NCBI GenBank assembly: GCA_947179485.1
Contig: OX359246.1
Location: 14,570,001-14,634,000, forward strand
DNA length: 64,000 nucleotides
Source of the DNA: Allacma fusca
Lineage: Eukaryota > Arthropoda > Collembola > Symphypleona > Sminthuridae
Direction of reading: 5' to 3'
Of the stretch, positions 1 to 56,970 are shown one piece after another (within the stretch, counting starts at the first letter, position 1; every line of letters starts with the position of its first letter). The notes under the pieces are model-generated. The model was not told the origin of the DNA. It searched no databases and worked only from the letters and a program-made list of their open reading frames with translations. The position numbers and the translations under genes were made by a program.

Positions 1-3000
1 GCAACAGCATTAAACATGTTCGCCACCGAAAATATTACAAAGTACAATTGAGCTCCTAAAGCCCAATATCCAAAACTTTCATTGAATAATTTCTGAATGA
101 TTTTGAGCTCGTGATACCAATGAAAGATTCCTTCGTTTGTCATGGCGGTTTTGGGATTCCATGTTAATGATGTCACTCTATTTTGAAACATCGAAAATAT
201 AACAATAATAATTATGACCCACAGACGTTTACGCTGTATTTAAATTACAATAAATTATTATTCCATTGTACCTCAATCCCTTTATTACTGGGAGCACTGC
301 TTCCACGTAGCAGATGACAGTAACCATGTTAAATATGGGCGTGAAGTATTGCACAATGTTAATGTAGCCGATCAAAGCAGTGTGGAGTAGAATGATGCCC
401 TTTTTTAGCTTCTTGGGTTGTAATGCCATGGATGTGAAGTACATGGGTGCCTCCGGACGTTTCAGAGCTCCTAATGTGTTTCCCAGAGCGAACAGTGTCG
501 AAGGTATCATTACAAGGGAAATCATTCGGCTCAATTTTTTGTCACTTTTATTGGATCCCCGCTTAGTTTTTCCCAAGCCATTGCGTAATTTGTCTTTCGA
601 TTCTGTGAAGAACACAACTAGATATTTAATATTTACGTAATTGTAAAGGGAAATATGTCACCACAAGTACTTTGCAAAGCAGTACACAGTACTGGAAACA
701 TTTGACTACTATATACATAGGTACCTTACTGTATGCATATTATCCTTAGTGTTTCTTGTAGGCCTCCGCTCATGTACAACTCAGACATGAATGTTTCATG
801 TGTGACTCATGTCTCAACTCATGTTCATGTATCGGATTATCAAATCACAGACCATTCATGTGTATTTAAAACATACTTGACATCATACATGATTTGTCAA
901 GTCATGTCTTATGTCATGTGCAGGTTACCATGAAAACATGAAGTTGATTTCATGTACACTTTCATGTTAACAAAATCAGAAGACATGAACTCAAGCTCAA
1001 AAACACGAATATTTTCATGTCACCATAAGGTATGGAAGTAATCGCTAAATCGTTGTCATGTCGCTCTTTTCCTTGCGCGTATGGAGCGGGAAACCTGAAT
1101 CAGGTGACGATTATTGCTGATATGAGGCACAGATGGGCACCCTCACGAGGGATGAGGCATTGATGGCCCTCTGCCTCATCTCTCCTAAAATATAAGCATG
1201 ATGGAGAGTACAAGCTTAACATGAATGCACTCATTAAAATGAGGCTGAGGGGCAAAAGCGGTCTGTAAATGAGGACGATGGGGAGTGCTATTGATGCCCT
1301 CATTTGGAAAAAATTGGAAAAATTGAGTACAAAAATATTCCAACATTATAACGACACGCAAATCTGCGCAAATTATGTCCTATATTGTCAAGTCATTTCC
1401 AAAGTGCAAAAAATTAACGGATCAGCATGGTGATCCATTTCTTGACATCCCAAATTTACCCCATTTCCTTCTTTCTACATTTGTATAAGTAAGTCAAAAT
1501 TTTACAAATACAAAACAATATTAGTTTTGTATTATATTTATTTTAAATGCTTAATATGGAAGCCCGTTACAAATCAATTATTTTAATGACACTAAATAAG
1601 AACAATTCACGTCGGGAGTGGCACTCACGTTAACGAGGGAGAGGGCTGTGTTTTATAAATTGGTGCTCACGAGAGAGAGAGTGTGAGGGCCATCTGGTAG
1701 ATGTCGCGCGAGGGTTTGTGAGGGAGGGCATGACCGCATATTATGACTCCCTCGTGAGGGGAGGGCGAGGGTTGACTTAATGCCCATGCATGATATGAGG
1801 TAGAAGACTACGTGTTATCCTCTCTACTAAATTGAGAGAGTTGATAGTGAAAGTGATGGTAAGATTCAAATATTCGCGCGCGAGCTCTGCGGCAATATTC
1901 GCGCACTCTAGATGTATCGACAACCATAGTGCAATGCTCGTTCCATTTAAACCATACCAGTCATTTTAAGTTGTAGAATTTACCACTTTTACTACTACGG
2001 AAAAAGAAGGATCAAATATGAGAGAATCAGCTCCAATAAGTAGCAGTATGTATCAATAGATGAGTAATGCGAATTTTATTTCATGTCATCATGTTCATGT
2101 ACATGTTCATGTCCAGTTCATGTACTTGAAATTTTCACTTTTCATGTTCATGTAAATGTCATGTTCAAGTTTACTTTATTCACATGAAATAAAAGTCAAG
2201 TATTCGTTTAGAGTGACATGGTTTAATTCGGGTGATTTTGAAAATAACTCATGTAAAACATGAAAATTCATGTTCATGTTCATTTTCATGTTCATGTTTA
2301 AGGAAAATGTACATGTGCGGAGGCCTAGTTTCTTGTGAATTGCAAGTTAGCCGCAATTACTAATTGAACTTGCAAATTCGGTTCAATTGGGGTAATTGGA
2401 CACCAGAAAATTGCAATTGTCGGTGCAAGTGCAATTTCTATCTACTTAAATTGCAATAATTACAAAAGCAATAAATACTCGCAATTACCGGTTAAGCACA
2501 ACTGAAATTACAAGAAATTCAATTGCATTTACAAGTGCTTGCACTGCAAAAAATGTTTGCAATTTTAAAAATACTTATCAATTTAATTGTAACTTCCAAC
2601 CGTTTCGAATTTGAAATTCCACGAAATGCATCAATAAGTCATTTGGCTCTAATAACTGTAATGTACTATATAATAATCACGAGTATTATCTCAACGAGTA
2701 TAGTTACTACACAATTCGGTTTTCGACTTTTATGTCTCATTGCCGAGGCAAAATAGTTTCTTTAGAAATTATATCCAGATGTTTTTCCAACTGCCTTACC
2801 AACTTGTTGACTAATTGCAAGTTCAACTTGTCAATTAGGTTATTCGCATATTGACATATTTTAGCAAGTGCCAGCTATGGCATTACTGACACTTGCATTA
2901 TCAATTATATTGTAACTGCAAGTTCGGGTATTCCCAATCTTTGCACCGACAGAAACACTAATTCTAATTTAAGAAAAATTAACCAGTGTAAGCAAGGAGA

Positions 3001-3562
3001 CATTTCTGGTCATTGTAAAAGACAAGTACTGTTACAAGAGGTCTTGTGCGGTCAGAGTACAAATTTTACGAGTATTTTACCGATGCTATTATGAATCATT
3101 TTATAACCTATAGAGCCGGGTATAATTTCAGGACTAACTTGACCATGTGTGATTTTGAAAATTTAAAAGCGTCAAATTAAGAAACAATAGATTACCGTGA
3201 AATGTGTTCGTGAGGTGAACGAAGCTGTTGACAAGCATAGGGAAATTCTGACAGTAGGCAACTGTATTGATGACATTGAAACCCATCCCAAGGAAAGATG
3301 TGATCATGTACAGCAAATGAAATTTCGGGCTTGTGGGCAATCTAGTACTTTGGGCAATGCCAAAGGACCTTACAATCAAAAATATTTGGTACAGCGCCAT
3401 GCAAAGTAACTGAAGAGAGTATTTTGTCGTGGACCAAAACGTTTTCTTCTTTATAAATTTTTTGGCTCTCTTATCCCAAACCCATTTGTAGGGGAAGAGG
3501 TTGATTGCGCTGGAGAAGCGGATGATTCCTTTGTAATATTTCAAAGATGACTCTCCAAGCAT
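1..3562 (-). CDS. Gustatory-receptor-like 7TM protein GR1 (3' partial)
   Basis: Exon 1 is 3196-3562, exon 2 is 272-602 and exon 3 starts at 177 and runs off the window. Exons 1 and 2 have exactly the lengths (367 and 331 nt) and splice phases of GR2 at 38405-40025, with GT donors and AG acceptors. The protein starts MLGESSLKYYKG and has hydrophobic helices in exon 1, exon 2 and the visible part of exon 3, as expected of a divergent arthropod gustatory-receptor channel subunit in the membrane of chemosensory neurons. No stop or frameshift is visible. Intron 1 is 2593 bp against 370 bp in GR2, because of nested hAT elements at 747-2960. The conserved C-terminal TM7 and TY motif lie outside the window, so family assignment rests on GR2. 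Ligand is unknown. Confidence 0.75.
759..2327. mobile_element. hAT non-autonomous element, CATGTTCATGT-word type
   Basis: Imperfect terminal inverted repeats TAGGCCTCCGCTCATGTAC and its complement with one or two changes. The 8-bp target duplication GTTTCTTG (751-758 and 2328-2335) is perfect. It inserted 12 bp inside the left end of the 747-2960 element. Both arms (770-1020 and 2080-2310) consist of degenerate repeats of CATGTTCATGTA. There is no transposase; it is 1569 bp including a further nested element at 1128-1792. Confidence 0.9.
1128..1792. mobile_element. hAT non-autonomous element, innermost, CAAAGATGGGCA-type ends
   Basis: Left end CACAGATGGGCA and right end TGCCCATGCATG, about 9 of 12 positions paired. 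Perfect 8-bp target duplication ATATGAGG (1120-1127 and 1793-1800). Arms are rich in CTCACGAGGG and GATGAGG words. Length is 665 bp. The ends resemble those of the elements at 24925, 33566 and 56034. Confidence 0.82.
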
Positions 3563-4119
3563 TTTGGAGTTGATATTTCCAAAGTGTTAAACGTTGGAAG
3601 GAAGTTCTAGAACTGGAGATCTGTCGGACATGTGGCAAAAGCTCATACTACCGACAGTATTGCACTTGTAAGCGCAATATGATTTTAATATTTCAGAGCG
3701 TGTCTATGTTATTAAATGATAATAACCGGATTCATTCATGTATTATTTTAGCCTCTCCAACGACAATGTACATATGGTGTCAGGACTTCACACATAAAAT
3801 AATAAAATAATAATGTTTTTATACTCCGACTTCTACCTTTAAAGTCTTGTAGTGTTTTTGTACAGAAATAATAAATTACAGGTTTTAATCAGTCTCTTTC
3901 TCTTGTCTCTTGTTAATAAAATATGAAAAGCTAAAGCTCTTTAATTACTATTGTCGAGTAACTGAGCAAGTGTTGTATCGACCCACGTAAAGCATTCACC
4001 CAATTGTAAAAGTTGCAATACACATTCCGAGGTTTAATATAAATTTACCGTCAGAGGTATTTCCTTATAACCAAACCATATGGTAATGAACTACTGTAAT
4101 GTAAAAATATAATTGATGT

Positions 4120-6039: not shown

Positions 6040-6215
6040 GAAAACTCCGCCGGGGATTTTTACGCGGAGATATTTACGCAGAGAAAACTCCGCGGGAGAT
6101 TATTACGCCCGGGTGGAGATTATTACGCGGAGATTATTACGGGGAGGAAATTCCGCCGGAGATTTTTACGCCACGTGAGAGAAATTTACGCGGAGAGAAT
6201 TCCTTCGGAGATTAT
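6040..6215. repeat. Degenerate tandem repeat, GGAGATTATTACGCG type
   Basis: About nine imperfect copies of a unit near 15-20 bp built on GGAGATTATTACGC and AACTCCGCGGG. It is GC-richer than its surroundings. It looks like one arm of a word-array transposon, but no paired terminal repeat was found. Confidence 0.6.
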
Positions 6216-10666: not shown

Positions 10667-10674
10667 GGGTAAAG

Positions 10675-11637
10675 CAGGGACGGGAATTCGAATTCGAATC
10701 GGAATTAGAATCGGAATTATATTCAAAAAATTCGGGTATCCGAATCGATATTAGAATCGGAAAACAAGTCACCACGGTATTTGTATCCGAAATTGGATTA
10801 GAATAAAAACAAGGGTATTCGAATCGGTATTCGAATGTTTTTTAACGAATTACGATTCCAATAAAGTATCGATTTCATTGGGTTTTATACTGTCACGTGC
10901 GAGAAAATGTTCATAGGTAGCATTTTTTGAAAGCCGCACATGCAATTATAAAACCCAAAGGGCAAGTAACGAACGTTTGGTAAACGAAAAGTGTATGGTT
11001 GGTAATGGGCAAAGAATTAAAGCCCTTTTAGTAAAAATTCCTACAATAGGATGAGATAGCCGCATGGTGCAGGTCTTACAGAACGATCAAGTGAATCAAG
11101 TTTCTTCTTTCTTAAATCTTGTTCTCATCATGGGATGCGTAAAACTAATTCCGTTGAAGTGCATTTTAGTTACCATGTGTTATCAAACAAATCGATTTGC
11201 AAATATATACTGTCAGAAAAAACTAACCGGAAAAGTAGTTAGACAGCTTAACAGATTACTCCGAATTTTTAAAAAATGTTATTGGATCAATCCTTGCTTT
11301 TCTAGTTACTGAAATTTCAGTTGAGCGTGTGTTTTCTGCGCTTAAATTTATATTAAATGATTACGTGGTAATGTATAGATGCAAAAACGCTTAATGTGTT
11401 ATGTATTGCTTATTTTTTTGCGATTAAATTGTTCTTTTAAATAAATTCCCGTAAATTGTACGAATATCCGAAAAGTATTTGAATCGGAATTCAAATTCAG
11501 CAAGTATTCAAATATATTGGAATCCGTATCGGAATTCAAATTTTTAAGTATTATTAAAAATAATTAAAATTGAAATCGAAACTAGAAAGTATTCGAATCC
11601 GAATTTAAATCCGTATTTTTCCGATATCCCGTCCCTG
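10675..11637. mobile_element. hAT element, GAATTCGAATCGG-word type, with transposase remnant
   Basis: Ends CAGGGACGGG and CCCGTCCCTG, with a perfect 8-bp target duplication GGGTAAAG (10667-10674 and 11638-11645). Both arms are degenerate arrays of GAATTCGAATCGGTATTCG. Between the arms, plus-strand DNA near 11310-11370 encodes EISVERVFSALKFILND, the signature of the hAT C-terminal dimerisation domain, so this 963-bp element is an internally deleted descendant of an autonomous hAT. Confidence 0.92.
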
Positions 11638-11645
11638 GGGTAAAG

Positions 11646-11947
11646 GAAAAAGGTATTCGGTTCTCCCATTTTGTATCAAAGTAAGGATGTAACTTACAAT
11701 CCGTAGAATCTATGTATGCACGTTTGCGTTTATAATGAACTCGTATTTCAGAGAAAGCACCGGAGAGGCCGCATTGAAAACAATACGACTGGATAAGGAT
11801 ATGACTGTCCAGGTTGAACAAAGTGCAGTGGTAATGTTTTTACAAATTTATAAATGTTCAAACATTATTTATCGTTAATAATGTGTACAAGTAAGCAAAA
11901 TAACAAAAGCCAACTTTTTCTGCTTATTTAAATTTAGGAATCAAATA
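11646..11947. other. Upstream flank of the NB-ARC gene
   Basis: No upstream exon was recognised. A possible splice acceptor (polypyrimidine tract then TTTAG at about 11938) lies just before the first ATG of the NB-ARC frame, so a short 5' exon cannot be excluded. Confidence 0.4.
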
Positions 11948-13552
11948 ATGTACCCTCAACATCTGCTACCTCACAGGGAATCACTTTCAGGTGGAACTAT
12001 GCGCGAAATCAACTATCCAATAAATAATTCGGGAAGTATACATAACCTTATAATAAACTCGCAAACAACTTCGACTTCACGACTTGAATTCAATGTTCAG
12101 GAATGCATTCAAACTTTTTTTGGAAGAGAAGAATTTATCAAGAAACTGCATGAAAACATTTCGAACATTCGTACACCCAACCCTTCGTCCATAATATCAA
12201 ACGCTATTATGATTTGTGGACTAGGAGGTGTAGGAAAAACTCAAGTGGTCCGAAAATACATTCAAGAGCACAAGGCATATTATGGCCATATTTTATGGAT
12301 AAATGCCGAGAGCAAAACTGGAGCAACAAGCAACTTCCTTCAATTAGCTAAAAAATTACGAATAGATGTAAACCAAGATGGAAAACAAAACACGGGTGAA
12401 GATACTATGGAAGATGTATATGATGTTGTATGCAAACAACTTTCGTTGCTCGTTTACGACAACATGGAACCAACTGCTGATGGTAAGGATGGCATTCCTT
12501 GGATGCTTCCAAAAACTATAAAATCTGGTTGGAAAGCACCAGTGATAATAATCACATCACGAAATCGGGACTGGGTGCATTTTCAAGTGGAGGAACTCCA
12601 AGTCTCTGATTCAAGTGAAAGCTTGTCATTTCTTTCTTCGTTGGAGTTCGAAGATTGTGAAGATAATCGCATCCTGCTTCAAGAAGTTGTAAAAATCTGC
12701 CAGGGTTTGCCACTTGCTTTGCAACAAGTAGTAGCATTCGTTCGAAACAAGCGAAACGCGCGTGCTGCTCTTCATGAAAAACCGTACAATTTAGAAGATT
12801 TTTTAAATGACGTTGCAATTCAACGAAAAAAATTTCTGGAGACTAGACCAGAAGGAGTACAACATCCAGACCTGTTCACACTATTTGATATGACATTTGA
12901 ACATATTCTCTCTACAAAGCAAGGGACATTGACCATTCAATGCTTGGACGTAATGGCAATTCTTAACCCCGATCACATCTCAACAGAACTTATCCAGAAA
13001 ATTTTCAACCATGCAAAGGATAAACTAGCAAAAGTGCTGAATTTGCTAAGTAAATTCGGTTTAATCACCAGATGTGATGGTTACTATCAGATGCATCGCA
13101 TGATTCAAGCTGCCATCAATGAGTCAAGGAAAACAGGCACCAAATATACCCACATAAAACACAACTTTTATCAAATCGTAGCCACTTTTGACGAATTAGT
13201 AGAAAATTTGCCTACGAACTATGACAATGTGCACCAGACGCTCGACAATGTGATCCGAATTTATGACTTCAACCCTGAAATTAACACAAAAAAATTCCAA
13301 AAATATCAAATAAATCTCGCCGAAAAACTAACAGACGTAGGGAACTACATAATTGCGATTAAAATATATATCAAAACAGTAAACTCGAGCAAACTACTTT
13401 ATGGAACTGATCACCAGAATACACAAATTGCGAAAGGAAACTTGGCAAACCTTTTGCGAATACAAGGAAAATATGACGACGCAGTAGAACTTAACAACGC
13501 CGTTTTGGAAATGAGCAATAAAATCTTAGGTCCCGATCACCCTAATACACTT

Positions 13553-14419
13553 TAGAGCTACTTTTGGGATCGGGATACACCCGGGAATTGGGTTCGAGAT
13601 CGGGAACGGGTTCGAGTTCGGGTGTCTAATTAATGTTCCCAAATACTTTGAGACCAGGTTCAGGAGCATGCTCAGCAGACCCGGGATTTCAGGATCGGGA
13701 CCGGGTTTGGGAACGGGTTCAAGCTTGATGCAGGTATTTGTGTTCCCGTCGGGAACCGGGAACATCTTCGTTCCCACACCCGTTACACGCTTCACGTTCC
13801 CGGGAACCACGTAACCATCTAGCGGAGAAAAAAATACAAAGCATGCACGGCTTCCCTCGTTAAAGTGTTGAGATAATAATTTTACGAGAGCGACTTGGGC
13901 CGTTTCGCATATTGTCAGTTGGGATCGCATGTCGCATAGTAGTGATTTCCGCCTACTCTAACTTGCAAGATGAAAGTCATTGCAAAACTCATAGTGGGAA
14001 TCGTTTAAGCAGTCTTCCTGCATCTTTTTCGGCAACGCAGACCAGACGTTTAGTTTGATGACAATTTTTACTAGTTTCTAAATCTATTGTATCATGGTAC
14101 GCACGCATAAGTATTGCTAAATCAATAAAAATGTGAAGAAAAAAACTGATTTACACCAACTGCGCTGGTCCCGGGAACGAGTCCGGGTTCAAGGGATTCG
14201 GGATCGGGATTGGGAGCAAATTTTATCTGATTTCGGGTTCGGGACCGGGATCGGGTTTGAGATCAACGGTTCAAGGATATTTAATATCTGGGTTTTTGTG
14301 CACCCGATCCCAGTATTTCGAGAACGGGTTCGGGTGTGAGTCCGAAAATATTGATGACCCGATTTTCGGGATCGGGTTCGGGAATGGGATCAAACTTTTC
14401 GTTCCCACAAGTAGCTCTA
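13553..14419. mobile_element. hAT non-autonomous element inside the TPR coding sequence
   Basis: Ends TAGAGCTACTTTTGGGA and TCCCACAAGTAGCTCTA, one mismatch. Perfect 8-bp target duplication ATACACTT (13545-13552 and 14420-14427). Arms are arrays of GGGATCGGGTTCGGGAACG and its complement in opposite orientations; the centre (about 13810-14150) is AT-richer and has no transposase. Length is 867 bp. The intact duplication points to a recent insertion. Confidence 0.95.
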
Positions 14420-14427
14420 ATACACTT

Positions 14428-15561
14428 AGGACCAAAAATAACTTAGCAGCAGTTTTTCAAGCCCAGGGAAAGTATGACGACGCAATAGAGCTTTACAACG
14501 CCGTTTTGGAAATAAGCAATAAAATCTTAGGTCCCGATCACCATGATGTACTTACGACCAAAAATAACTTCGGCATAGTTTTCCAAGCTCAGGGAAAGTA
14601 TGAGGATGCAATAGAGCTTTACAACGCCGTTTTGAAAATAAGCAATAAAATCTTAGGTCCCAATCACCCTGATACACTTAGGACCAAAAATAACTTAGGC
14701 TTAGTTTTCCAAGCTCAGGGAAAGTATGACGACGCAATAGGGCTTTACAACGCCGTTTTGAAAATGAGGAATAAAATCTTAGGTCCCGATCACCCTGATA
14801 CACTTAGGACCAAAAATAACTTAGCAGCAGTTTTTCAAGCCCAGGGAAAGTATGACGACGCAATAGAGCTTTACAACGCCGTTTTGGAAATAAGCAATAA
14901 AATCTTAGGTCCCGATCACCATGATGTACTTACGACCAAAAATAACTTCGGCATAGTTTTCCAAGCTCAGGGAAAGTATGGGGACGCAATGGAGCTTTAC
15001 AACGCCGTTTTGAAAATAAGCAATAAAATCTTAGGTCCCAATCACCCTGATACACTTAGGACCAAAAATAACTTAGGCTTAGTTTTCCAAGCTCAGGGAA
15101 AGTATGACGACGCAATAGGGCTTTACAACGCCGTTTTGAAAATGAGGAATAAAATCTTAGGTCCCGATCACCCTGATACACTTAGGACCAAAAATAACTT
15201 AGCAGCAGTTTTTCAAGCCCAGGGAAAGTATGACGACGCAATAGAGCTTTACAACGCCGTTTTGGAAATAAGCAATAAAATCTTAGGTCCCGATCACCAT
15301 GATGTACTTACGACCAAAAATAACTTCGGCATAGTTTTCCAAGCTCAGGGAAAGTATGAGGATGCAATAGAGCTTTACAACGCCGTTTTGAAAATAAGCA
15401 ATAAAATCTTAGGTCCCAATCACCCTGATACACTTAGGACCAAAAATAACTTAGGCTTAGTTTTCCAAGCTCAGGGAAAGTATGACGACGCAATAGGGCT
15501 TTACAACGCCGTTTTGAAAATGAGGAATAAAATCTTAGGTCCCGATCACCCTGATACACTT
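14428..15561 (+). repeat. 378-bp higher-order repeat of three TPRs, three copies
   Basis: Three consecutive 378-bp units (14428, 14806, 15184), each three 126-bp TPR modules in the order LAAVFQ/ELYNAVLEIS, FGIVFQ/ELYNAVLKIS, LGLVFQ/GLYNAVLKMR. Units 1 and 3 look identical and unit 2 differs by about three bases, including KYGDAMELY for KYEDAIELY. Two further, more diverged TPRs (from 15562 and 15688) and a broken one follow. The pattern indicates recent unequal exchange or gene conversion. Confidence 0.92.
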
Positions 15562-16172: not shown

Positions 16173-16418
16173 ATATTTTCACGCTCGTATTGTTTTGATA
16201 ACTAGGTTTTGAGAGTGTTGTCGGGTTTCTTGTGATGCAATGTATCTTATTTGACGTAGTTATCATGTAAAGTAGTATTAATAATATAAAATGGAATTAT
16301 TTGTGATGATATGTAACAAGTGCAAATATTTACTTGAGTCAGTAAAAGCATAAATAAGGTGGCGATATGAAATGCTTATTTAATAAATTGCTACTAATAA
16401 ATGAAACATTATTGCAAT

Positions 16419-17278
16419 TAGGGTTTGTCGATTTTTAAATGCCTTAGGTATTTTGCCTGGCCAGTATTTTTTGCCCGTGGCAAGGCAAAAAAAAACAATT
16501 TATGCCTTCGCCTTGCCCTTAAAAATAAATGCCGGGCAAAAAGGCAATAAATGCATGGCAAAAATGGCAAAAATTATGGCAACAAAAAACTTCTCGCGAA
16601 AAATCTTTTGCGGGGCATGTTGAGGTGCAGTATCGTGCCATGAAGAAGTAAAACTTGTTCAGCAGACTCGACAACAATGAGTATGCTTTCAAAAATGCCA
16701 CCATTACAAATCGAAAATTTGGAACAAATGTGAGAATGCTGGTCTATTTGTTTTCAATTTGTAATTTTAGTATTCATCCAAATGTTTAACATTATATTAA
16801 CCGACAATACTCATCCAATTTGTCACTTTTTGGGAACTATTGTGTCTAAGTCAAAACTATCGCCAAAAATATGTGAACACAAACTAACAATTTTCCAAAT
16901 CACTATCAGAATACGGTTCCTCAATTATCAATATTGTTTCAAGTTAATCGTCGGTTTTTTCGTCGCCTTCATCAATTTCATTGAGGCTATTAACATATGA
17001 CGAAGTGTCTGCAAATAATTAATTGTATATCGAATCCACGAGCCCACATTCTTTTGCTCGTTTGAAAGCCTATTTTAAAGTTAGCCACGGTCGGAGCAAG
17101 CAGTAATGATGGCGGAAATAGAGCGTTCCATGAGCATAGTTAATTTATGCCAATTTTGCCAAGGCAAAAAATATTAAATGCCAATTCTGCCAGAATGGCA
17201 TAAAAAATCATTTTTTGCCCATGTGAATAAATGCCCTAAATGCCTGCAAATTTGCCATTTAAAAATCGACAAACCCTA
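16419..17278. mobile_element. hAT non-autonomous element, AAATGCC / TTTTTGCC-word type
   Basis: Long, apparently perfect ends TAGGGTTTGTCGATTTTTAA and complement. Perfect 8-bp target duplication ATTGCAAT (16411-16418 and 17279-17286). Arms are made of GGCAAAAA and AAATGCC words, inverted between halves. No transposase. 860 bp. Confidence 0.95.
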
Positions 17279-17286
17279 ATTGCAAT

Positions 17287-22088: not shown

Positions 22089-22269
22089 TTAGATGAATGA
22101 ACACACGTATGAGATGCACTCATCATAAGTGGTTCTAAGGTTAAAATAATAACCAGTGTTGGTAACCATTATTTTCTTGGCGTCGGGTTAAACAACAGTA
22201 ATCTCTGCTGTTTCTTGATTTCAGATTAATTAATACTTCACAAGAGCTGAATTCTTGAAATTATATTGC

Positions 22270-24715: not shown

Positions 24716-24924
24716 AACCTGAAGTCAAGAAACTACAGTGACCACTGTTGTTTAATCTGAAGCCAACAAACCATTGGTTTCCAAATGTGGTCACTATTTG
24801 AACTTCTGATGAACGCATGCCATAAATGCGTCGTTCATCTAAAACAGCATCGACTTTCGAAAGTGAAACTTTCTTATGGGATTTAACACTAGAAAATTTA
24901 GGTGGGACAGGATACCCTTTGCTC

Positions 24925-25676
24925 CAAAGATGGGCAAATGAAGTGCCTAAGTCTATAGCCTGCCTATTTTATTTCAAAAAATATCGCCATCCTATATAGG
25001 CTAATAGGATGTTCCAACGAAAAGAATAGCCTTAATACCACGGGTCAAGTACTCTAACTGCCTGCCTATTAGCCTATATCTGTCCTAGTGTGCATTGATT
25101 TTGCCTGCCTATATTTGCTGTACAGCTTCTGACAGCGCTTTGCCAGCCTATATAGGCGATATAATTGTGAGCTTTAGTTAGAAAGTGTAAGCCGTATACA
25201 AGGATCACATGCAACATGCAATTGGAATATCAATGTAGGGGTTTGATTAGTGCTGTAGTAAACTACATAGTATCCATCCAGCGAGAATAATAAAATTATG
25301 GGACGATTATGTACGTACTATGGTACACATGTGCATATACTTTGGTAATTACTGGTTGCAAGTAATTCCCGCCTCATTGTCAGCCCGTCTCTGGAAACGT
25401 TTTCCCAACGTTTGTAATCCTGTCCTAACAAATTGGTGCTTTGAGAATGTTCCGCTCACCACTATTGCCTAGCCTTTACTTGAAGGAACTTGTAGCCTGC
25501 CTGAATAGCCCAGTCCCTTGTTCGGAAATATCTGAATATCCTAGATTTTCCCAAAGCCTGTATTGTAGTGGTGATTGACCAACCTAGAACCTCGCCTAGA
25601 TTTATATCCCAACTTGTAGCATCCTAGAGCCTTAGCCTATTATAGGGCCTAGAATCTAGGCAGGCGCCCATGTTTG
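24925..25676. mobile_element. hAT non-autonomous element, CAAAGATGGGC ends, TAGCCTA words
   Basis: Ends CAAAGATGGGC and GCCCATGTTTG, perfect 8-bp target duplication CTTTGCTC (24917-24924 and 25677-25684). Arms are arrays of GCCTATATAGGC and TAGCCTGCCTA words. 752 bp, no transposase. Inserted in the right arm of the large inverted-repeat element. Confidence 0.93.
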
Positions 25677-25930
25677 CTTTGCTCACGAATTAGAATTTGA
25701 AACTTCTGTGCGATTTCCCGCGCAAACCAGGGCGAGTTGGTCCAAACATTTGGTCTCACTGGGACACTGGGCCAGGTACCTAAGCTCCCACAAAATTCCA
25801 TTCCGATCCCGAGTGGGCATGTTGGGGGCATGCAAGGGTTACTTGTAAGTAAACAACCTACATACGTAATATGCTGAACTATAGGTAAATAAGTATTGAA
25901 GTAATATTTTAAACTAAACGCAAATAAGTA

Positions 25931-31665: not shown

Positions 31666-31783
31666 ACCCAACCTTAAAATTTAATCGCCTAGGATTGTAA
31701 ATGTTACTATTGAAAATAATGAATCTACATTTAACATCTGAACTTTTAAACGTTAGACACCATGAGAATACTACGGAGGAGGT

Positions 31784-31966
31784 TAGGGCTTCTTTCGGGA
31801 CTTGACGTCTCGAGGTTTTCGGGACCGGGATCGGGACAGTTTCGGGACAAAGTCTTTGTCCCCATTTTATTTCGGGACTGAACGGCGACGAACGTTTTTG
31901 TCCCGAGGATTTCGGGACTGGACAGAATTGTCAGAGGGACAAAAAATTGTGCCAGTAGAAGCCCTA
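31784..31966. mobile_element. Miniature hAT-like element, TTTCGGGAC words
   Basis: Ends TAGGGCTTCT and AGAAGCCCTA. Flanking 8-mers GAGGAGGT and GTGGAGGG agree at six of eight positions. Arms consist of TTTCGGGACCGGGA words in opposite orientation. 183 bp, the smallest member of the word-array class. Confidence 0.75.
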
Positions 31967-32115
31967 GTGGAGGGTTACAGTATAAGTACATGTCTATTAA
32001 GTAATTTCTAAATATTTAGGAAGCTTATTTGCATTAAAATCTTACTTGAAGTAGTTGCAATGATGCAGATTTTCTTCTAACGTAAAATGATTGTGGGCAA
32101 CGGATAGGTTTTTTT

Positions 32116-33535: not shown

Positions 33536-33565
33536 ACACATGAGTGAACTGAAAATACTTTCACA

Positions 33566-34427
33566 CAAAGATGGGCACCTCGCCTGAAACTACTTGTGAA
33601 TAGGCAACTAGGAAGGAAGGAAAGCAAAACGGATAGGTTTTTAGGAAAGGAACTAGGAAGGTTGTAGAATTTATGTCAAAACTAGGAAATAGAATAGGAA
33701 GGCTGAGAATATGTAAAATAATAGGCAAGTTCATAGGAAGGGTGAGGGAATTGGAAGGATCCTAGGAAGGACTACCGGGAAGACATATTTGACGCCAACC
33801 AGCGGCAAGAGATGAAAATGGTTTGTATGATTTCTGCTAGTTATTTGTATTGAACCGTATAACTTTGAATAAACGACATAGTAAAAAACAAGCTGTGAAG
33901 AAATTCCATCTATAGGGACCCCACTAATAGTTAGACGACTAGATTCGGTGTTTCCGTAGATTTCATGGTGTGCTGTGAACAGGGTTTATTTTTAGTACAT
34001 TAATATTCTGAATGCTGCTAACGTTAAAATATATCTTCCAGAAAATAAATCCAAACTTGGAACTTATCATGTGTTCGTCTAACAATATACATTTTAAATG
34101 ATTACAATTATCATATCTACCCGCTTATGTTAATGTATATTGTTTCTCAACGCTATTCGTAAAGAAATGTACAATTTTGACCAAACCGGCAAAGGAATAC
34201 CCAACCAACTAAGGCTGAACAAAGGCAATTCAGACTGACTTAGGCATTTTCGACCCTACTAGGCAATTTAATAATCTGACAAGGAAATAGGAAGGGCAAT
34301 TATATGCCCATTTTTAGGAAAAAGGAAATCAGCAAAAGTCCGGTTTAGGAAGGGTATTAGGAAGGACAATCGAGATTACATTGTATAGGTAAGGTTTCAG
34401 GCGAGGAAAACCAGTTGCCCACCTTTG
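33566..34427. mobile_element. hAT non-autonomous element, CAAAGATGGGCA ends, TAGGAAGG words
   Basis: Ends CAAAGATGGGCA and TGCCCACCTTTG, perfect 8-bp target duplication CTTTCACA (33558-33565 and 34428-34435). Both arms also carry a second shared block (CTCGCCTGAAAC and GTTTCAGGCGAG). Arms are arrays of ACTAGGAAGGAAGG words; centre non-coding. 862 bp. Confidence 0.93.
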
Positions 34428-34740
34428 CTTTCACAAACATTTTAAAAACAGTGACGGTCTCATTATGGAAAAATCTCTGTCACATATTATACTTTCGTTT
34501 TGGATATGCATGAAATTTACTACAAAATCACGCCGTCCTAATTTGTTTTAAGAAGGCTAGATCGTCCATGATAAAATTATTTTTTAGGTATGGAAACCCG
34601 TTTAAAATCGCATTTAAAAGTTCATAAATTTTCATATAAATTTGCTTTAAAAATTCCGTAATAATTTAAAATTCCAAAACTTCAACTTTGTGAAAACAAA
34701 TCCCCCAGCATTTATTAATATGCTGCTTAGTTACCATCAT

Positions 34741-40025: not shown

Positions 40026-40029
40026 TTTA

Positions 40030-41783: not shown

Positions 41784-42720
41784 TTAAATCCCGTAGGATT
41801 CAAATACTTGGGCGTGTCATGTGTAATCTCATACTGCCATGTTTTTTTTATTAATGCCTGTATATTACTATCAAATTCACAAATTTAACTGGTTGCATTA
41901 CAAGTTAAAATTTGCAGTATGTATGTATATTGTTTAGCTCGATGTGGGTTTCGAACATTGTAATTTTTAAATATTGCCTCAATTTGAGAACACAATAAAA
42001 GGGAGTACATGTAACTTTAAATGCAATTGTTAGCATGTGCAATTTCCAGTTCGTGATAAATGTAGGAAAACGCGATCTGTGCGTATGATTTTTCCTCCAA
42101 AGCTTAAACACTTTCAAAATAGCTAATTTATTGAAAAGTCCAGTTGAAACATGTAGGAAAATACGACACAAAGCAAATAACTTGCAAATTTTATGAACGA
42201 ACTTCCTGGCTTGAAGTGACATTTGAACAAATTATCTGGGAGTAATTTTGTCAAGTATCAATTTTAAGCTGCTCTTTGTGAATTAAATTAAAATTTGGCA
42301 TAATTACGTTAGTTTAAATATTTTAAATTGTATGGATATTGCTTTCCTTCCCATCGCTATATTCTCGTTCTAGTATTATTATAAGTTCAATTCATTAGGG
42401 CTGTTTTGGGGGAAACTGGCTGAAAAAAATCCAGCATTGGCAGCGGAACCATATTGAGTGTTAAAGTTCTAAAAAGTGTTTTCATTTTTACAGGAGCTTG
42501 ATATTTGGGCTTTCAAAGTGTTTCCGCATTGAGTGCTAGATAAGTTCATACTTTCATGCATTATATGTAGTGCGGCAGTAATTAGCTTCATTACCAGATC
42601 TTACCTGACTAACATGCCAATTTTAATGAAAAGTACATTCAAATTTTTTAATTGTTGTCATTCTGCTTTGAAATCTGCTTCGATTTATTAAATTCCAAAA
42701 ATATTGTCATATTATTGACT
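41784..42720. other. Intergenic; junction of the two duplications
   Basis: Up to about 42360 belongs to the receptor duplication; from about 42395 begins the esterase duplication unit. An AATAAA on the minus strand at 42689-42684, about 32 nt past the esterase stop, is a likely polyadenylation signal. Confidence 0.55.
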
Positions 42721-45700
42721 TCACCATTTCAAAATACTGGTTAACGTTTCCACTCTTTCCTCAAATGGTTCCTGTATAACTTTCGGTGTTTCTGACAACT
42801 CGAAATAGTGAAGCTTACCAGGAGTATGTTTCTGTTTCGTCCACTTCACACCACGGAACTCCATTTTCTCACTAAAAGAATTAATAATATTTTAAAATAA
42901 ATATTGCCAAATAGAATACGTTTGCAAGAGAATTTTCAGGAGTACAAAAATATAATTAATTACTCGTCAGTAGCAAACTGGACCCAAAGTTTGACCATGT
43001 CTTTAGAAAACTTGTAATCAGCCGAGTCATCCTTTTGAACGTCGAAAATCCCGTTCAGTACAAAAAGCATTGCAATATCGTCGCCATGACAGACGCCTAA
43101 AACATATTCCATTTGAATTAATCTTACTTCATAAACATAGAGAACTAAAAACGGGTCACTCAAAATTACCGTAGTCATGAGGCTTAGTTCCGAGAATACT
43201 GTTGAAGATAGATTTGGCAATGAAGATGCCAAACTCAATTAAAATTGGATATCTATCCTGAAGTCCTGCAATTAGTGTGGCCATAGAAGGTCCGCCATGA
43301 CGATTGTAGTAGTACAAATACACAGGCATATACGGTTTCTGAACCCAAAAGGTATAGCTGGCATGATGGTTGAAAAAACTGTCTGAAAATAATTGTGTAT
43401 ATTTTTTGAATTTTTGCTCCTTTGTCATAGGTTCAGCAGACTTTGGGAAATATAAATTCCGTATTTTTGCAGCTTTAGCCTCCGCATCAGGTGTATCCTT
43501 GGGAAAGCCAAAAGAGCGAAGTACATTTTCAGTCCAATTATCTTCGTAGGCTTGCATTGCTGCTTCGGATTTAAGGAACTCTGTTTACAAATGTGAAAGA
43601 ATTTTATTTCAAAAATTACATAATTACCAAAGGTGGAACCGCTTTGAATCAAACTAAATTTACACCTAACGCTGATATCAGTCCCTCATCAGCAGTGACC
43701 CCGGACATCCATGGAATGCGATGGAATTTGCGTTCTTTTACTGCATCCAAAGGGTGCTGGGCCAAAAATGTTTCTTCGTCATCAATAGCTTCAACGCTGG
43801 GTCTCAACCAGTGGCCATCCTTGTGGGGGTGGAAAACGTCGGATTTATCCTGTAATGATAACATTTAAAAAATAGCTCCTCTTGAAGAGAAACAAAATCT
43901 ACAAACAAAGAGAATATTTTATGGTAGAGAGCCTGCATCAAAATAACGCAAAAAGGTTGCACTTACGATCTCAATATTCCCAGCTTTTATCAAATCTTCA
44001 ACACTTTTCTCTCTCAAGCATTGAGCTAGCTGAGCGGAATTCCCAGTTGGACAATTCAGTTCCGCAGCAAATTTTTCCGTGTACTTTTTGGCTACCTCCG
44101 TGGTATCAGAGCCCCAGGGTTGAGAAGCTACGCCACTCTGCGAGATCACTTTTTGGAACAATCCCTTCGTAGAGGGTGATAGCAACAAGTAGTGAGTACT
44201 TCCACCGCTGTTGGTGAAATTTTACATTTAATAAAACAATCGATACAGCACACTTGTACAATAATATACTGATTTATGCATCAAGTCGTTTCAAGTCATT
44301 AATTTAGAGCCATTTGTCATGCTTGAAATTTATTATTTTCGTAGAACTTACCCAGCGGATTCCCCAAAAACAGTTATTTTATTGGAATCCCCCCCGAAAG
44401 CCCCTATGTTTTCTTTGACCCATTTGAGTGCCAGTACTTGATCCTTTAAACCCATGTTTCCTCGAATATTTTTATCACCCGTATTTAGGAAACCTACATA
44501 AAACATTTTATTTATACTCTTCATCACAAGGGTAATAGATTTGATCTTTCGTGTGAAACTAATTTGGAAAATAATCACGATAAATTGTACCTAAAGCATT
44601 CAAGCGGTAATTAATCGTTACAACGACCACTTCCTCATCCATGAAAAAATTCGGCTTGTATTCAGCATTATTCCCGTATTGGTAACCACCGCCATGAACC
44701 CACACCATTACAGGAAGAAGTTTGTGGAGTGTGATCTTATTAGGCATTTCATTTTACAAGGCTTTTATCAATAAAGAGAATCTCGCTAGCACTATATATC
44801 TACATAATACCGTGTGTTCTAGACATATGGGGCTTGTTCTATGATTTTGTTGTAAGTATATTGGGATCATTTACTGATTTATACTCAATCCTTTCCCATC
44901 CCCCATCAACCCATATACAGATAGGGGTCAATGTCAGAGAGCATTGGATTATTTCATAAAAAACCTGCCTGTAAAATACGTTCCTATGTCTTAAAAATTA
45001 AGTGAAAGTGCTCCCCTTTGGATCGGTAAGGTCAAACGGCATTGCCCAGATATTTTAAACTCCAACAAACATTGAAACACTGTCCCGATTTGAAATTATT
45101 TGTTTTTTTATTTTTGATTTATGAAGCTGATTTACGATTTTGTGGCAGAATCTTGCTCCACATTTTTCACGTCTGTGTCAATCGAATTACTCAACGTAGG
45201 AAACTTATACGTTGTGCTTGTTTCAAAGCACTTTAAATTTGATAATATCGAGGTTTAATCTTTTTTTAAATTTGAAGTTTTTGAGTTAAAGTAATAAAAC
45301 AAATTTTGAAAATTATGTAAGAAAATTGGACAGCTAGTGAAGGAATTGAGTATTTTTTGACATTGGCCTCAACATCGGCTGACGGAAGATGGGCGATTTT
45401 CGAATATAGGAGTATATCAGAATGACACCATAAGCAACAACTCCTACTGCTTTCATGCTTCAGGAGCTTTCTTATAATTGTGTTATAGAGAGAGCGCACT
45501 GTATTGAATACATTCTTATAGTTCCGTCACTTACCTTTGGGGAATGAACGTTGAGCGACAAACAGTCCTGTCAAGTTAAAAATCATGTCATTAAGTACAA
45601 ATTTGCATGTAAGCATTTTTATTATACGTGTTGATATTTTAACTGCTCTGTTATTATTTTACAAACCTCATCACCACTGTAGACACTACCGTCCAGGGAA

Positions 45701-46099
45701 AACATACTTGGCTGCGGACATTGGGCTCCATAATTGCTCCCATCCCTGACTCCTTCCCATTTGTCCGCAGGTTGAGGACTCTGCACATTGTGAGTACACG
45801 GAGTTAAGTAAATTAAGCCATATGTACATAAATCAACGTTCACAATTTACAAGTTCAACAATTTTTACATTTGAGCAAAATTGTATTACCTGGAATCGAA
45901 GTTCCCCTACAGGTGGCTTTCCATAAGGAATTCCAAGCCACTCCTCAAAATCACTCCCATCCCTGGATTTGGATACAATTCCTTGAACTAATCCATTCTT
46001 GGTTTCCACAGTTCTCCCCCGTATTTTACTGGAAGGTCTCCGTATATACAAGGCTACTACTGCTATTACAATAGAGAGTATCACAAGTTTTTTGAACAT
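42721..46099 (-). CDS. Carboxylesterase 1 (CE-1), ten exons, intact
   Basis: Exons: 46099-45890, 45780-45667, 45567-45535, 44735-44591, 44493-44352, 44207-43967, 43849-43666, 43580-43170, 43096-42964, 42871-42721; every junction is GT-AG and in phase, total 1764 nt, 587 aa. Alpha/beta-hydrolase of the type-B carboxylesterase family, hydrolysing carboxylic esters (xenobiotic, lipid or pheromone esters). Seen: an N-terminal membrane anchor or signal [46 protein letters not shown]; oxyanion hole HGGG 133-136; nucleophile Ser213 in GESAG; Glu350 in TADEG; His497 in GVCHGD. So the triad is complete. The exon 7/8 junction uses donor TTAG|GTGTAA; read through, it would meet a stop, as also in CE-2. 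Length is normal. Catalytic in principle; substrate unknown. Confidence 0.92.
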
Positions 46100-47180
46100 A
46101 TTGACACTGGATTAAATAAATTACGTGAGTATAAATTGAAAAGTTAGCGTTCAAACTAGGATTAATAAAAGTCCCTAGGAAGGAGTTTTCATGCAACTGA
46201 TAAATCATTTTCGTTCACACATTCCTGTACAAACAATTAATACTGACAGACTTTTTGCATGGCTCAAGTGTTTTTGTCAGGAGATAAAAATTGTGTCCAT
46301 AATGATGAGTTATATGGAGCCCTAACGAGTGTTCATAAAAGTTGTCCTTGAATTTTTATAATAGTTATTATGATCATCACACATGATGTACTTACATAAT
46401 AACTATTTACGTGCTACTTATTTTTATCACATGAAAGATACTAAATATCCACTCGTTCCCTTGTATTGCTTCGATAACGTTAGATAATTTTGGGGGCGCG
46501 CTTAACTTATACGCTCAGCCTTATAATTACGAATTTGTCTGGCTATCAACTGGACCCAATCCACTCTGACTGTAGAAATCTTACAATTATATAAGTACAA
46601 TTACTGATCAATAGGAATAGTTAAAATATATATTGGGACGCATTTTAACGTTTTTCCTTCTCGCAAATAAATGTCCTTGTAACGGGGTGAATTTGTTCTA
46701 AATTAAGGGCTGAGCCTGGTACAAGAGTGGACGTTACGTAAAAATCATGCATGAAGATAAAGTTTTTACGTACAAGACTATATGCACTTGATGTACTACA
46801 AGCTCAAAGAAAAAAGGACTTGAACAATGTACTTAGCATCTTCACGTGCGTAAAATTCATCGCGATTAGCATCAGCTAAAAAATAATACAGGACAGAATT
46901 TGTATTCACTCAATATTCCAGGTACGTCTCTGTAGGACTCACTGAGAAGCAAGCATTTGTTTTAACAGGATCATTTATGTTGCACCTCATCTCTCACATG
47001 CAATGACAGGATTTGAGCACTGAATTTGACGGCTTCACTTAAAAGGATTTTTTCTTGAGTAATTGAAGTGGCCTTATAAATTTTGACCTTCGAAAATTTA
47101 TTGCACAATTTCAGGATATAGTCCTTTCTGGACAGGAAGTGTCCAGTCATCAAGGAAATTCTCGTTCCTTTATTTGTTAA
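46100..47180. other. Upstream flank of CE-1
   Basis: Shared with about 57130-58035, so part of the duplicated unit and likely to include the promoter; no motif can be assigned. No gene seen. Confidence 0.5.
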
Positions 47181-49283
47181 CCCTACTGCTCCCAACCTAT
47201 GTCCAGCCTGTCCAAAATGGAAAAATTTGAGGAATACTATTATTTTTTTAAACTCCAGTTAAACCTACAGATTTGAAAAAAAATGTTTTCGTTTCCGGAA
47301 GTGTTTTCTGCTGTTTTAAAAATTTTCAACATTCCAGGTTCATAAACAAAGCCGCAATAAAATTATAAAAAATTAAAATCCTTATATTTCCGCCATTTTC
47401 AATGCTAGATAAGCGGTCCATGCAATTGCATAGGGGCCATCAAAATATTTCTACGAAATGAAAAGGCAATTTCTATTATTTTGAAGCCACTGGGAAGGCT
47501 CAAAGTGGTACACATGTGTAGCAGGGATACCAAAGATTGTCCCTATCACCTTTGCAGGTCACATAGGTCAACTTGAGGTCACGATAAAAACGAGTGGAAT
47601 TCTCCCAAATAAAAGCCATCTGAGAGTTTCAGTTTTATTTATAGGAGGCACTGGTGGTAATTGTGTCCTATTGACAATTATTAAGGGGCACCACGCTATA
47701 AAATGACGATTTTGACGTTGACCTCATCATACTCTTTTTTTTTCTCTACAGGTCACAATACACTTCTTGTACCTTGTTTAGGTTTCCACTACAATTAGTT
47801 TTGGCAAAACTCGGTATTTGTTTCCGATTTTTTTTTCATGTAGTGTTTGACCTCCTGATAACCTAGTTGACATCCAGGATCACGGTCTTGAATGAGGATA
47901 TGTTTGGAGGGGAAAGCAGACATTATTCGTCAGTTACACTGTCTAACCTTATTTGACCCAAGTTGACCTGTAAAGGTCGCGTCAGTCATTAGCAAAAAAG
48001 TGGCCCAATCTAACCATTTTTAGGTTGAATACAGCGGGGTTATCAAAACGTTTCGTCCAGACCAGTGCTCGGCATGGGTACGAAAAATCGGTACCCGTAC
48101 CCGTATCCGTACCCGAAGTGCGGGTATTGTAATATCTGGTATCTATACCCGTACCCATACCCAAGTATCCGGGTACAAATTTTTCATACCCGTACCCGCA
48201 ATGTAATCTCAAACTATGTACCTGTACCCGCATTGTACCCGTACCCGAAAAATACTCGAAAATTGTACCCATACGCGTGTATCTCAGTGTCGTACCCGTA
48301 ATCGTACTCGGGTACTTTATATCCAGATTTCTCTAAATGTAGTATATAGTATGTTATGTATAATAATGTATGACAGCTTATTGTTAGTGTGTAATTTTGA
48401 CTAGCTAGGGCGGTATTTGATTTTGTATATTTTCATTGAAGATTAGAAACACTAGAAGCGTTTTTGATTAGAAATAAAATTAACTTGCATACTTGCAGAT
48501 TTAACAAAATATTACCAAGCGTACAAATGTTTGCTGAATCCTATTCTCCTCTTCTATTTTGTTATTATTCCTCGTTTGTGTTTATTCATTTATACATCCT
48601 AAAACCTGTTTGCCTAAACACATATATTTTAGCTACAGTCTAACATACATTTACTGTATGTTTTAAGGTTAAAATAGTATTAACACTAAGCTATAAGTAT
48701 TCAGAAACACCAAAAATAAGGCCAGAAGTTTCCAACGTACGGGCATTATAGTATAAAATGCATTAAAATGTCTCATTTCTCAGTGTATCCAAATACTCGG
48801 GTACAATAGTCGTGGGTACGATAGTAAATGACCCCATTATACCCGTACCCGGTGGGTATATGCCCATTTTGAAATCCGTGTACCCGTACCCATACCCGTA
48901 TCCATACCCGAAATTTTTATTTACCAAAGTGTACCCGGGTAGTACCCAAAATTGATCGGGTACACAAAATTGGTATCCGGGTAGTACCCATACCCGTACC
49001 CGTTTACCCGAGTATTACCCATACCCGTGCTGAGCACTGGTCCAGACGATCTACTAACTGACCTCAGGTCAACCTAGTTGACCTGATGGTTGACCTATTG
49101 GGTTACACGGGGAATTTGTGGAAGGGTGTTTCAGTTTTCAAAGCAGCCTGGAGGAAATTGGGTTACTGCATGTGACAACTCCTTTGTAACTTTGTTGATG
49201 GACCCTTGCATGGAAAATTCCATTGGACAGGCTGTCCATACCTTGGGAATATATGTAACCAATTTAGGTTGGGAGGCAACGGG
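47181..49283. mobile_element. piggyBac-like non-autonomous element
   Basis: TTAA on both sides (47177-47180 and 49284-49287), ends CCCTACTGCTCCCAACCT and AGGTTGGGAGGCAACGGG. TTAA duplication and CCC start are the hallmarks of piggyBac. The right esterase unit keeps the empty site (CGTTAATGCAGG near 58040). The body repeats AGGTCAACTTGAGGTCA-type words and has no transposase. 2103 bp including a nested 977-bp hAT. Confidence 0.9.
48063..49039. mobile_element. hAT non-autonomous element, GTACCCGTACCC words
   Basis: Ends CAGTGCTCGGCATGGGTA and complement with two changes, perfect 8-bp target duplication GTCCAGAC (48055-48062 and 49040-49047). Both arms are almost pure TACCCGTACCCGTA arrays; centre AT-rich, non-coding. 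It lies inside the piggyBac-like element and is therefore younger. Confidence 0.96.
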
Positions 49284-50073
49284 TTAATGCAGGTTAGCAT
49301 TCCTTTCCTGTATTACATTCCGAGCATAAACTGAACGTCCCTGTCGCCAGTCCCCAGCATAAAGGTCAGTGGAAGTAAAGCCAGAATTTCCTGAATAAGT
49401 CAAAAACATGATTAGTGATAGATTATAGGAAGGAATTTTATTCACTGATGGTCAATAAAGAACCTGCATTGAATTGAATATCGAATGGCATTTGTGTATA
49501 AGGACATGGAAGAATTGCAAGAATAAAATCAGTACATGTCCGAAAATACAACCAGGAATTAACCTCGTTCAGAAAATACTGAATATTTTCTGCTGTCGGC
49601 CATAAATGGAGCAAGCTTTGGTGGAGTCCTCAAGGAGACCCCAAGCTATAGTAAAATGTAGTCATTCTATTGAATGTTGTGCAAAATACAATTAATTAAG
49701 AAGTAATATTTTACTTCTTGGTTAACTTGGGCGCGCAGGTCTGATTATTATGATATATTTTTATGGGATTTCCTATTTTGTAGAAAGACTTTCAGATTAT
49801 TTTTAAGTAATCTCACCAGGTGATTTAAACTTTTATCATTCAAATAAAATACTACTCACGTTACACGATAAAGTGCACTCTAGACATTGGAAGGTTCATT
49901 TTTGGATCATTGTTGCTGTACAAATATCTGGATCTTTCCCCCTAACTTTCTTATTGTATAAGAGTATAGGTTAATTTAATCCTGGAAAAATTAAAACCAA
50001 ATTAGTACAATTTCACAGGCAAATATTTTATTGGCATTACGAATACAACTCCTGTTTTCTGATTTGACGAATC

Positions 50074-55813: not shown

Positions 55814-56033
55814 ATTAACACTGGATTAAATAAGTACGTGAGTATAAATTGAAAAATTTGCGTTCAAACTAGGATTAAGGGCGATCTGATTGTGAGTAGT
55901 CCAGCACTGTAAGTACCTAAATATCATAGGTGGGGGATGGCTTCGAAGCCCCGTGCCCTGATCGTAGGAATGAAAGAGATGGATGCTGGATGCCGCTGGA
56001 TGTGCTGGGTCTGAAATATTACACACAAAACAC

Positions 56034-56970
56034 CAAAGGTGTCCACCTATCCTATTTATAGGCCTATATATAGGATAAAAATAGGCAGGATGCAAAATCC
56101 AAGTAATTATAGGTAGTAAAATAGGGTGCAGTAATTACCGCTAAAATTAATCCTATATTATATGTAGGAGGTGCAAGAGTTCACTTTTTATTTAGGAACA
56201 AGGTACTGTCGAGTCAAGCCAGGCTGATACTTTACCAATTAAGGACAGGTGTGTTACGCACGCCTCTCTTGCCTGCGATTGGCCGATAATTTTTCATGCG
56301 TTTCAGCGCGAAATAAAAGAATGTATGCATATGCAATGTAAATATCTTGCAACATGATTACGAAATTGAAACTCGATGGTTCACTCACTCATTACAAATA
56401 CAGAGTCAATCTATGGTTGACAAGTAAACGATGGTTGACAGTCACTCTATGGTAACTAGCATAAGCCTATCGGAGGCAAGAAAGGCGTGCGTAACACACC
56501 TGTCCTTAATTGGTAAAGTATCAGCCTGGCTTGACTCGACAGTTTGCGAAGGTAAAAATAGGCATATTTAATAATCTATTGACAAATTTGTCAAGCAATT
56601 ATTTGATTTAACCTTAAAATAAATCTCAAAAATATTCTTGTGACATTTTAGTAGTACGATTTTTTTCATGTGTTACGATTGCACGTACATGCATAGATGA
56701 TTTTTAGTTTAAAAAATAAGCCTTTCTAGGCTAAAAATAGGTGTTTATAGGCTAAAAAATAGGCCTTTATAGGCTAAAAAATAGGCCTTTAAAGGCTAAA
56801 AATAGGCCTTTAGAGGCTAAAATATAGGCAGAAACATTATAGTAGTATATATGTAGGCAAATAGGTAGGCAATTTATTTTTTATAAATAATATAGGTTAA
56901 TATGTAGGGAAGGCAAAGCTGCAAAAAATATGTAGTATTTTAGGTAGGCTGAACCTTTTGGACACCTTTG
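56034..56970. mobile_element. hAT non-autonomous element, CAAAGGTG ends, ATAGGCCT words
   Basis: Ends CAAAGGTGTCCA and TGGACACCTTTG, perfect 8-bp target duplication CAAAACAC (56026-56033 and 56971-56978). Arms are arrays of TATAGGCTAAAAATAGGCCT. 937 bp, including a nested foldback element at 56205-56543. The ends belong with those at 1128, 24925 and 33566. Confidence 0.93.
56205..56543. mobile_element. Foldback-like element with 75-bp terminal inverted repeats
   Basis: The first about 78 bases (ACTGTCGAGTCAAGCCAGGC...) are repeated inverted at the end with only about three changes, joined by about 180 bp of non-coding spacer. Target duplication not clear (flanks AACAAGGT and TTGCGAAG). The near-perfect arms imply recent activity. 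Family undetermined; long arms recall Mutator-like or foldback MITEs. Confidence 0.85.

Follow-up and report, generated by a model that had tools for sequence, protein, structure and literature searches.

Ten distinct transposable elements with hAT-type ends were identified in a 64,000-nucleotide window of the Allacma fusca genome (contig OX359246.1, positions 14,570,001 to 14,634,000 of the forward strand), and the outer parts of the nine that were scored are rich in short, repeated words. The best explanation, which we hold with high confidence, is that they are non-autonomous hAT transposons of the Ds or MITE (miniature inverted-repeat transposable element) type, moved by cut-and-paste, and that the words are predicted sites for the BED fingers of the transposases of their families. 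Parentage could be shown for elements 33566 and 10675 only (elements are named after their first base in the window). Words followed the relatedness of the transposases and mostly ran in the same direction at both ends of an element.

The ten elements were re-read base by base for their ends and duplications, and searches covered a eukaryotic genome of 393 Mb. The first-pass annotation of the window had counted about ten elements with eight or more perfect 8-bp duplications. Indeed, ten distinct ones were present (759, 1128, 10675, 13553, 16419, 24925, 31784, 33566, 48063 and 56034), and the target-site duplication (TSD) was perfect in nine of them, the exception being 31784. Position 747, listed as an element of its own, turned out to be merely flank of 759, whose duplication occupies 751-758. 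Terminal inverted repeats (TIRs) were short, with 9-16 of the first 16 bases agreeing in the ten elements. A combined scan for TSDs and TIRs returned 20 rows in the real window versus 1-2 rows in each of five locally shuffled windows; six of the 20 were elements seen in the first pass and many others were register variants of two tandem arrays. Element 1128 was nested within element 759. Element 13553 sat in a TPR-coding repeat array, other units of which show the duplicated word once, making the empty site visible. The array, with long runs of near-identical 126-bp TPR repeats in a 378-bp higher-order unit, belongs to an NB-ARC-domain gene (11882-15903) that is broken by this element.

Word enrichment was scored as z against dinucleotide shuffles in nine elements, 31784 being too short; here and in the coverage and polarity tests the limits of 1128, 24925 and 56034 lay at most 7 bases off the final ones. 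All 18 arms reached z values from 3.5 to 39, the middles ranging from −1.6 to 3.3. For 160 background windows the median was 0.66, with six above 5 and four above 10. Allowing two mismatches at most, the best 8-mer covered 19-50% of the arms and 0-13% of the middles in eight window elements. The description of nearly the whole of both arms as one word was therefore an overstatement. In a ranking by word content, the top match of the left arm was the right arm of the same element in 13 of 14 elements. In 24925, the left arm was closer to the right arm of 56034 than to that of 24925 itself, and the arm of transposase locus L010 was the best match of both. The supposedly unrelated words of the four elements with CAAAGATGGGCA-type ends were not confirmed, since 24925 and 56034 share one.

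On the side of the enzymes, a search with the hAT dimerisation domain gave at least 150 matches in the genome (150 of 860 candidates were scored), and 68 transposase loci, designated by L-numbers, were read in part. A 200-bp stretch with z above 6 occurred within 900 bp after the transposase stop at 45 of the 68 loci, a tally in which same-family copies are counted apart and some arrays belong to neighboring elements. The coding side had such a stretch in 3 of 48 cases; of the window stretches, 15 of 53 had one when the named elements were left out and 31 of 71 when they were included. Elements that combine transposase sequence with both ends, a perfect 8-bp TSD and a word common to the two arms were found at L015, L030, L032, L049, L052, L055 and L061; a shorter eighth is L054. 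Among them, L032, L049 and L052 form one related group, and L054 and L061 another.

Two window elements could be linked to such transposons by homology. In element 33566, 499 bp aligned at 78% with the 3' portion of two transposons, L023 and L072, as far as their 3' end; judged by this alignment, the element derives by deletion from a hAT transposon of the L023/L072 type. Element 10675 contains the only transposase trace in the window, a remnant with 21 of 38 residues identical to the L089 transposase (E 1e-13 in a single comparison) and no Pfam match at E 0.01; it also shares the GAATCGGAATT word with the L089 3' arm, and its arm matches L089 as well. Further partners were sought by the cosine between word contents of window elements and transposase arms, with a null 95% level from 20 shuffles. 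Element 1128 came nearest L022 and L038 (0.57 and 0.54, null level 0.38) and 56034 nearest L010 (0.44, null level 0.34); 24925 also went with L010 above the null level. The first-pass annotation had proposed to look for autonomous copies with the same word; a tie to transposases emerged for 33566 and 10675 by homology and for 1128, 24925 and 56034 by word content.

Two candidate partners involving the word GTACCC were not retained. Arrays of this word next to the transposases L019-L021 and L062 were not accepted as arms of those transposons, as they resemble separate inserted elements, and a 3.3-kb GTACCC element, considered as autonomous partner of 48063, showed a minisatellite and no transposase recognizable by eye in its last 1.5 kb. 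Arrays of an ACTTGAC/GACTTGACT word, a further word family, adjoin transposase loci at L018 (about 2280-2530), L041 (about 961-1200) and in the tail of L085.

The words had been described as inverted between the two halves of an element. This arrangement has to be rejected: when 8-mers shared between left and right arm were compared after trimming the last 25 bp, direct sharing was greater than inverted sharing in each of the 13 families (p 0.00024). Elements 1128 and 31784 were excluded beforehand, L049, L052 and L054 were collapsed with their relatives, and 24925 and 56034 entered separately despite their common word. Taking the best 8-mer, the counts in the two directions were 9/0 and 5/0 for the arms of 33566, and 1/6 and 0/18 for those of L015. 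Diagnostic bases that distinguish one end from the other, noted in the end patterns of 759 and 13553, were dropped as a sign of functional asymmetry because descent explains them.

The correlation between words and transposases that the first-pass annotation had proposed to look for was found as well. Arms could be delimited for 34 of the 68 loci, the other 34 being same-family copies or loci without an assignable end or array (no end was found in L048 and L071). Removal of L087, whose array is possibly foreign, left 33 arms, which were collapsed at 90% identity to 27 families. Similarity of 3'-arm words was then compared with identity of the dimerisation domain in Mantel tests with 20,000 permutations, for which the lowest attainable p is 5e-5. 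The correlation amounted to r 0.59 (p 5e-5) over the 27 families and was still 0.59 without the last 30 bp of the arms. For the 334 pairs below 60% identity r was 0.32 (p 5e-5). In 13 of the 27 families the best word match fell on the nearest transposase (p 0.0002). For 200 bp of DNA beyond the 3' end of the element, no correlation with transposase identity was seen (r 0.01, p 0.43, n=24). Of the coevolving system suggested earlier, the co-inheritance of word and transposase is thereby upheld, whereas reciprocal adaptive change was not demonstrated.

Very probably, each transposase lands on the words of its own family. Each family would retain the cis-acting sequences of the autonomous parent, namely the short TIRs and, over the outermost 200-300 bp at either end, a subterminal word array. 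TIR tips are alike in a large number of families (CANNGATGNGCA or TAAGGTTCT, for instance), and the word is probably what the N-terminal BED zinc finger of the family's transposase reads on the DNA. Several words per end could load several transposase subunits, presumably with cooperativity, and the common polarity would make the two ends distinct for the enzyme, which fits the asymmetric end binding reported for Hermes in the available part of the literature. Families with the same tip might be kept apart, or insulated, by their words. Shared tips with differing words would be expected of transposases whose catalytic core meets the tip and whose family-specific finger meets the words. As to the fingers themselves, 12 of 35 zf-BED matches lay, by eye, 1-3 kb upstream and on the same strand of one of the 150 listed dimerisation-domain matches; the BED domain of L056 matched at E 3.7e-6. 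In a few cases, loci with the same word had like BED helices (L056/L062 with GGACTGA, L047/L059 with AACCGTT and L049/L052 with ATCGGATA). A broader proposal, which we put forward tentatively and with some doubt, is that of a natural recognition code: about two dozen hAT lineages would use about nineteen words, each read by and co-inherited with its own BED finger, families with nearly identical tips would move independently, and, the words having one polarity through both ends, telling the left end of an element from the right would be a general rule of hAT transpososomes, beyond Hermes.

Several observations weigh against such a role of the words. No BED-like finger was seen by motif in L012, L013, L015 and L030, where it is perhaps split by introns. 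The finger of L040 is like that of L047/L059, yet only an A+T-rich array was present in the sequence examined, and the finger of L051 is like that of L055, yet no array was present there. These two loci and the families without a visible finger lower the odds of the recognition code. Word content gave no transposase partner for 759, 13553 and 31784, and the partners of 16419 (L017, at the null 95% level) and 48063 (L079, cosine 0.32, barely over the null level of 0.30) were borderline. The directions of the single best 8-mer agreed between the arms in 11 of 13 families; in 10675 the word is palindromic, and L030 disagreed. The best word match was other than the nearest transposase in 14 of the 27 families, and arms were delimited partly by eye, via end strings, the ends of complete elements or the z peak. 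Finally, related arms were still colinear in some pairs, beyond word-order shuffles (L056/L062, L032/L082 and L082/L054, for instance), the DNA between stop codon and arm also correlated with transposase identity (r 0.36, p 0.0008, n=19), and dinucleotide-shuffled arms gave r 0.10 (p 0.075) over all pairs and 0.13 (p 0.03) below 60% identity. Composition and common descent therefore account for part of the correlation.

These last points could also mean that arms and transposase were merely co-inherited and that the word correlation is residual arm homology of no functional meaning, an alternative that we consider unlikely but worth weighing. The correlation of the stop-to-arm DNA faded from r 0.26 (p 0.006) below 70% identity to 0.12 (p 0.09) below 60%, where that of the arms persisted. 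Moreover, L015/L016 and L027/L034 shared words without detectable colinearity, and in L016/L017, L017/L033 and L023/L033, which share words too, alignment scores stayed within the shuffled range. Since the DNA outside the elements shows no such correlation, and since some related arms are colinear and others share words in scrambled order, descent with constraint is supported.

Replication slippage in the transposon ends, by which each family would have slipped a different seed into micro- or minisatellites without any binding role, would be in line with the roughly 30-bp unit repeated in the L015 3' arm, with tandem periods of 6-43 bp in 759, 48063 and 56034 and with the frequency of other arrays in the window (the 15 of 53 stretches mentioned above). 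We nevertheless regard it as improbable: the same word recurs in both arms, as the 13 of 14 correctly retrieved right arms attest, word copies lie on both strands at irregular spacing (by eye), the arrays are restricted to the arms and are present in transposase-bearing copies, and the words track transposase relatedness even below 60% identity, which the DNA outside does not. That the words are features of silencing evasion or related to small RNAs, as the first-pass annotation had ventured, found no support here, no test having been aimed at it, and is very improbable, as transposase binding would account for the co-inheritance alone. Least probable of all are Foldback- or Galileo-type elements with long inverted ends built of repeats; the ends of Galileo are repeat-rich and hold transposase sites according to the available part of the source (PMC3688188), but here the words are direct between the ends in all 13 families, and short TIRs, 8-bp duplications and hAT transposases were found.

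Returning to the elements as non-autonomous hAT transposons, five families (48063, 759, 13553, 33566 and 10675) were counted in the genome and comprised tens to hundreds of copies each. With at most one mismatch allowed, the end pattern of 48063 occurred 774 and 764 times on the two strands, that of 759 89 and 85 times and that of 13553 206 and 207 times; the reversed patterns, used as control, gave 0 in each case. Among the best 40 scored copies, 38 of 13553 spanned 1-867 and all 40 of 33566 were at most 8 bases short of full length at 92-100% identity, and 37 of 43 rows for 10675 spanned the entire element (36 at 93-100% and one at 79%). Full-length copies of such identity carry the same word. 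Nine top rows for 48063, one being the window copy, were identical at 100%; recent independent jumps were rejected for the eight of them that were examined (L063-L070, L069 being the window copy). Their target duplication and flanks are shared inside a multiplied TTAA-flanked repeat, and exactly identical copies are thus not independent. The window copy of this repeat and 7 other copies were identical over the full stretch.

Table 1. Positions and sequence features of the hAT-type elements and associated features in the window.
Feature	Position	Length (bp)	With TSD or flanks	Strand	TSD	TIR or ends	Word or remark
Element 759	759-2327	1569	751..2335		GTTTCTTG	TIR TAGGCCTCCGC	CATGTTCATG, in both arms
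Element 1128	1128-1792	665	1120..1800		ATATGAGG	ends CACAGATGGGCA/CATGCATGGGCA	GAGGG/GTGAGGG
Element 10675	10675-11637	963	10667..11645	+	GGGTAAAG	TIR CAGGGACGGGA	GAATCGGAATT
hAT transposase C-terminal remnant in 10675	11239..11391			+			contains SVERVFSALKFILNDY; likeness to L089
Element 13553	13553-14419	867	13545..14427		ATACACTT	TIR TAGAGCTACTT	GGGATCGGGTTC
Element 16419	16419-17278	860	16411..17286		ATTGCAAT	TIR TAGGGTTTGTCGATTT (16/16)	AAATGCC/GGCAAA
Element 24925	24925-25676	752	24917..25684		CTTTGCTC	ends CAAAGATGGGCA/CAAACATGGGCG	ATAGGC/TAGCCTA
Element 31784	31784-31966	183	31776..31974		6 of 8 bases	TIR TAGGGCTTCT	TCGGGAC
Element 33566	33566-34427	862	33558..34435	+	CTTTCACA	ends CAAAGATGGGCA/CAAAGGTGGGCA	TAGGAAGG
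TTAA-flanked repeat	47177..49287	2111, incl. both TTAA				piggyBac-like, TTAACCC...GGGTTAA	48063 as passenger
Element 48063	48063-49039	977	48055..49047		GTCCAGAC	TIR CAGTGCTCGGCA	GTACCC
Element 56034	56034-56970	937	56026..56978		CAAAACAC	TIR CAAAGGTGTCCA	ATAGGCCT

Other repeats accompany these elements. Element 24925 is contained in a longer repeat of about 4.2 kb (about 21641-25822), the ends of which are 92% complementary over 145 bp; a 39-bp minisatellite makes up its inner arms and is inverted between them, an arrangement that sets it apart from the word elements. Between 31784 and 33566, inverted arms (93% over 145 bp) and an 89-bp tandem array rich in ACGTCGG extend over 32140-33056. 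At 6051-6201, units of 14 bp and 63 bp resembling GGAGATTATTACGC form an array that is perhaps a further word-type element missed in the first pass. Near-duplicate open reading frames with long hydrophobic stretches lie, by eye, about 38 kb apart (229-657 and 38954-39328, 3134-3586 and 39633-40049), which suggests a duplicated membrane-protein gene. No similar DNA was found for 40000-48000 of the window among the plasmids searched.

What is new here is the number of transposase-word pairs within one genome together with their common polarity. Neither a word-transposase correlation over many families nor a common word polarity was met with in searches of open-licence literature, judged by titles and abstract openings, which is weak evidence of absence. 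Many such pairs in one genome would make the code between BED finger and DNA directly testable and provide candidates for mutually orthogonal transposon systems, and the common polarity over 13 families extends the asymmetry of Hermes and yields a concrete prediction on end identity. Our data also suggest that masking such arms as simple repeats would hide functional ends.

Contrary to what the first pass had supposed, the type of arm as such is not new. In the available parts of the papers cited here and below, subterminal repeats to which the N-terminal BED finger binds count as a hallmark of hAT elements (PMC4890040, PMC10368747); the elements thus belong to a known kind. Structural detail on the recognition of hAT ends comes from Hermes (PMC10368747), and the PDB matches obtained were Hermes or unnamed transposase entries. 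Like the elements described here, Hermes has many short sites in both ends (17 and 14 AAG(T/C) motifs), BED recognition, which is predicted in our case, and asymmetric ends (PMC10368747). Its left-end repeats STR2-7 are antisense and its right-end repeats STR1-5 sense (PMC10368747). We read the paper as counting them inward from each tip, so that they have one polarity along the element; if so, the common word polarity found here agrees with Hermes. The Hermes site is 4 bp long, whereas in our elements the best 8-mer (two mismatches tolerated) covered 19-53% of 320-bp arms. Unlike in Hermes, about nineteen different words, counted by eye, were found among the families of one genome. The words of Ac/Ds differ from these. 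The likeness to maize Ac/Ds lies in the non-autonomous derivatives, which retain the TIR and some of the subterminal repeats (PMC3260210). Tgf2 has 17 and 18 subterminal repeats at its ends (PMC4890040), and excision of Tol2 falls when the repeats are mutated (as cited in PMC10368747); both resemble our elements in their subterminal repeats and differ in being single families, described in the available text without a series of words and transposases (PMC4890040). In Herves, a hAT element of Anopheles gambiae, the transposase binds a short subterminal motif, in our reading C(G/A)ATTCAT, asymmetrically at the two ends, with another word and in one family (PMC3143072).

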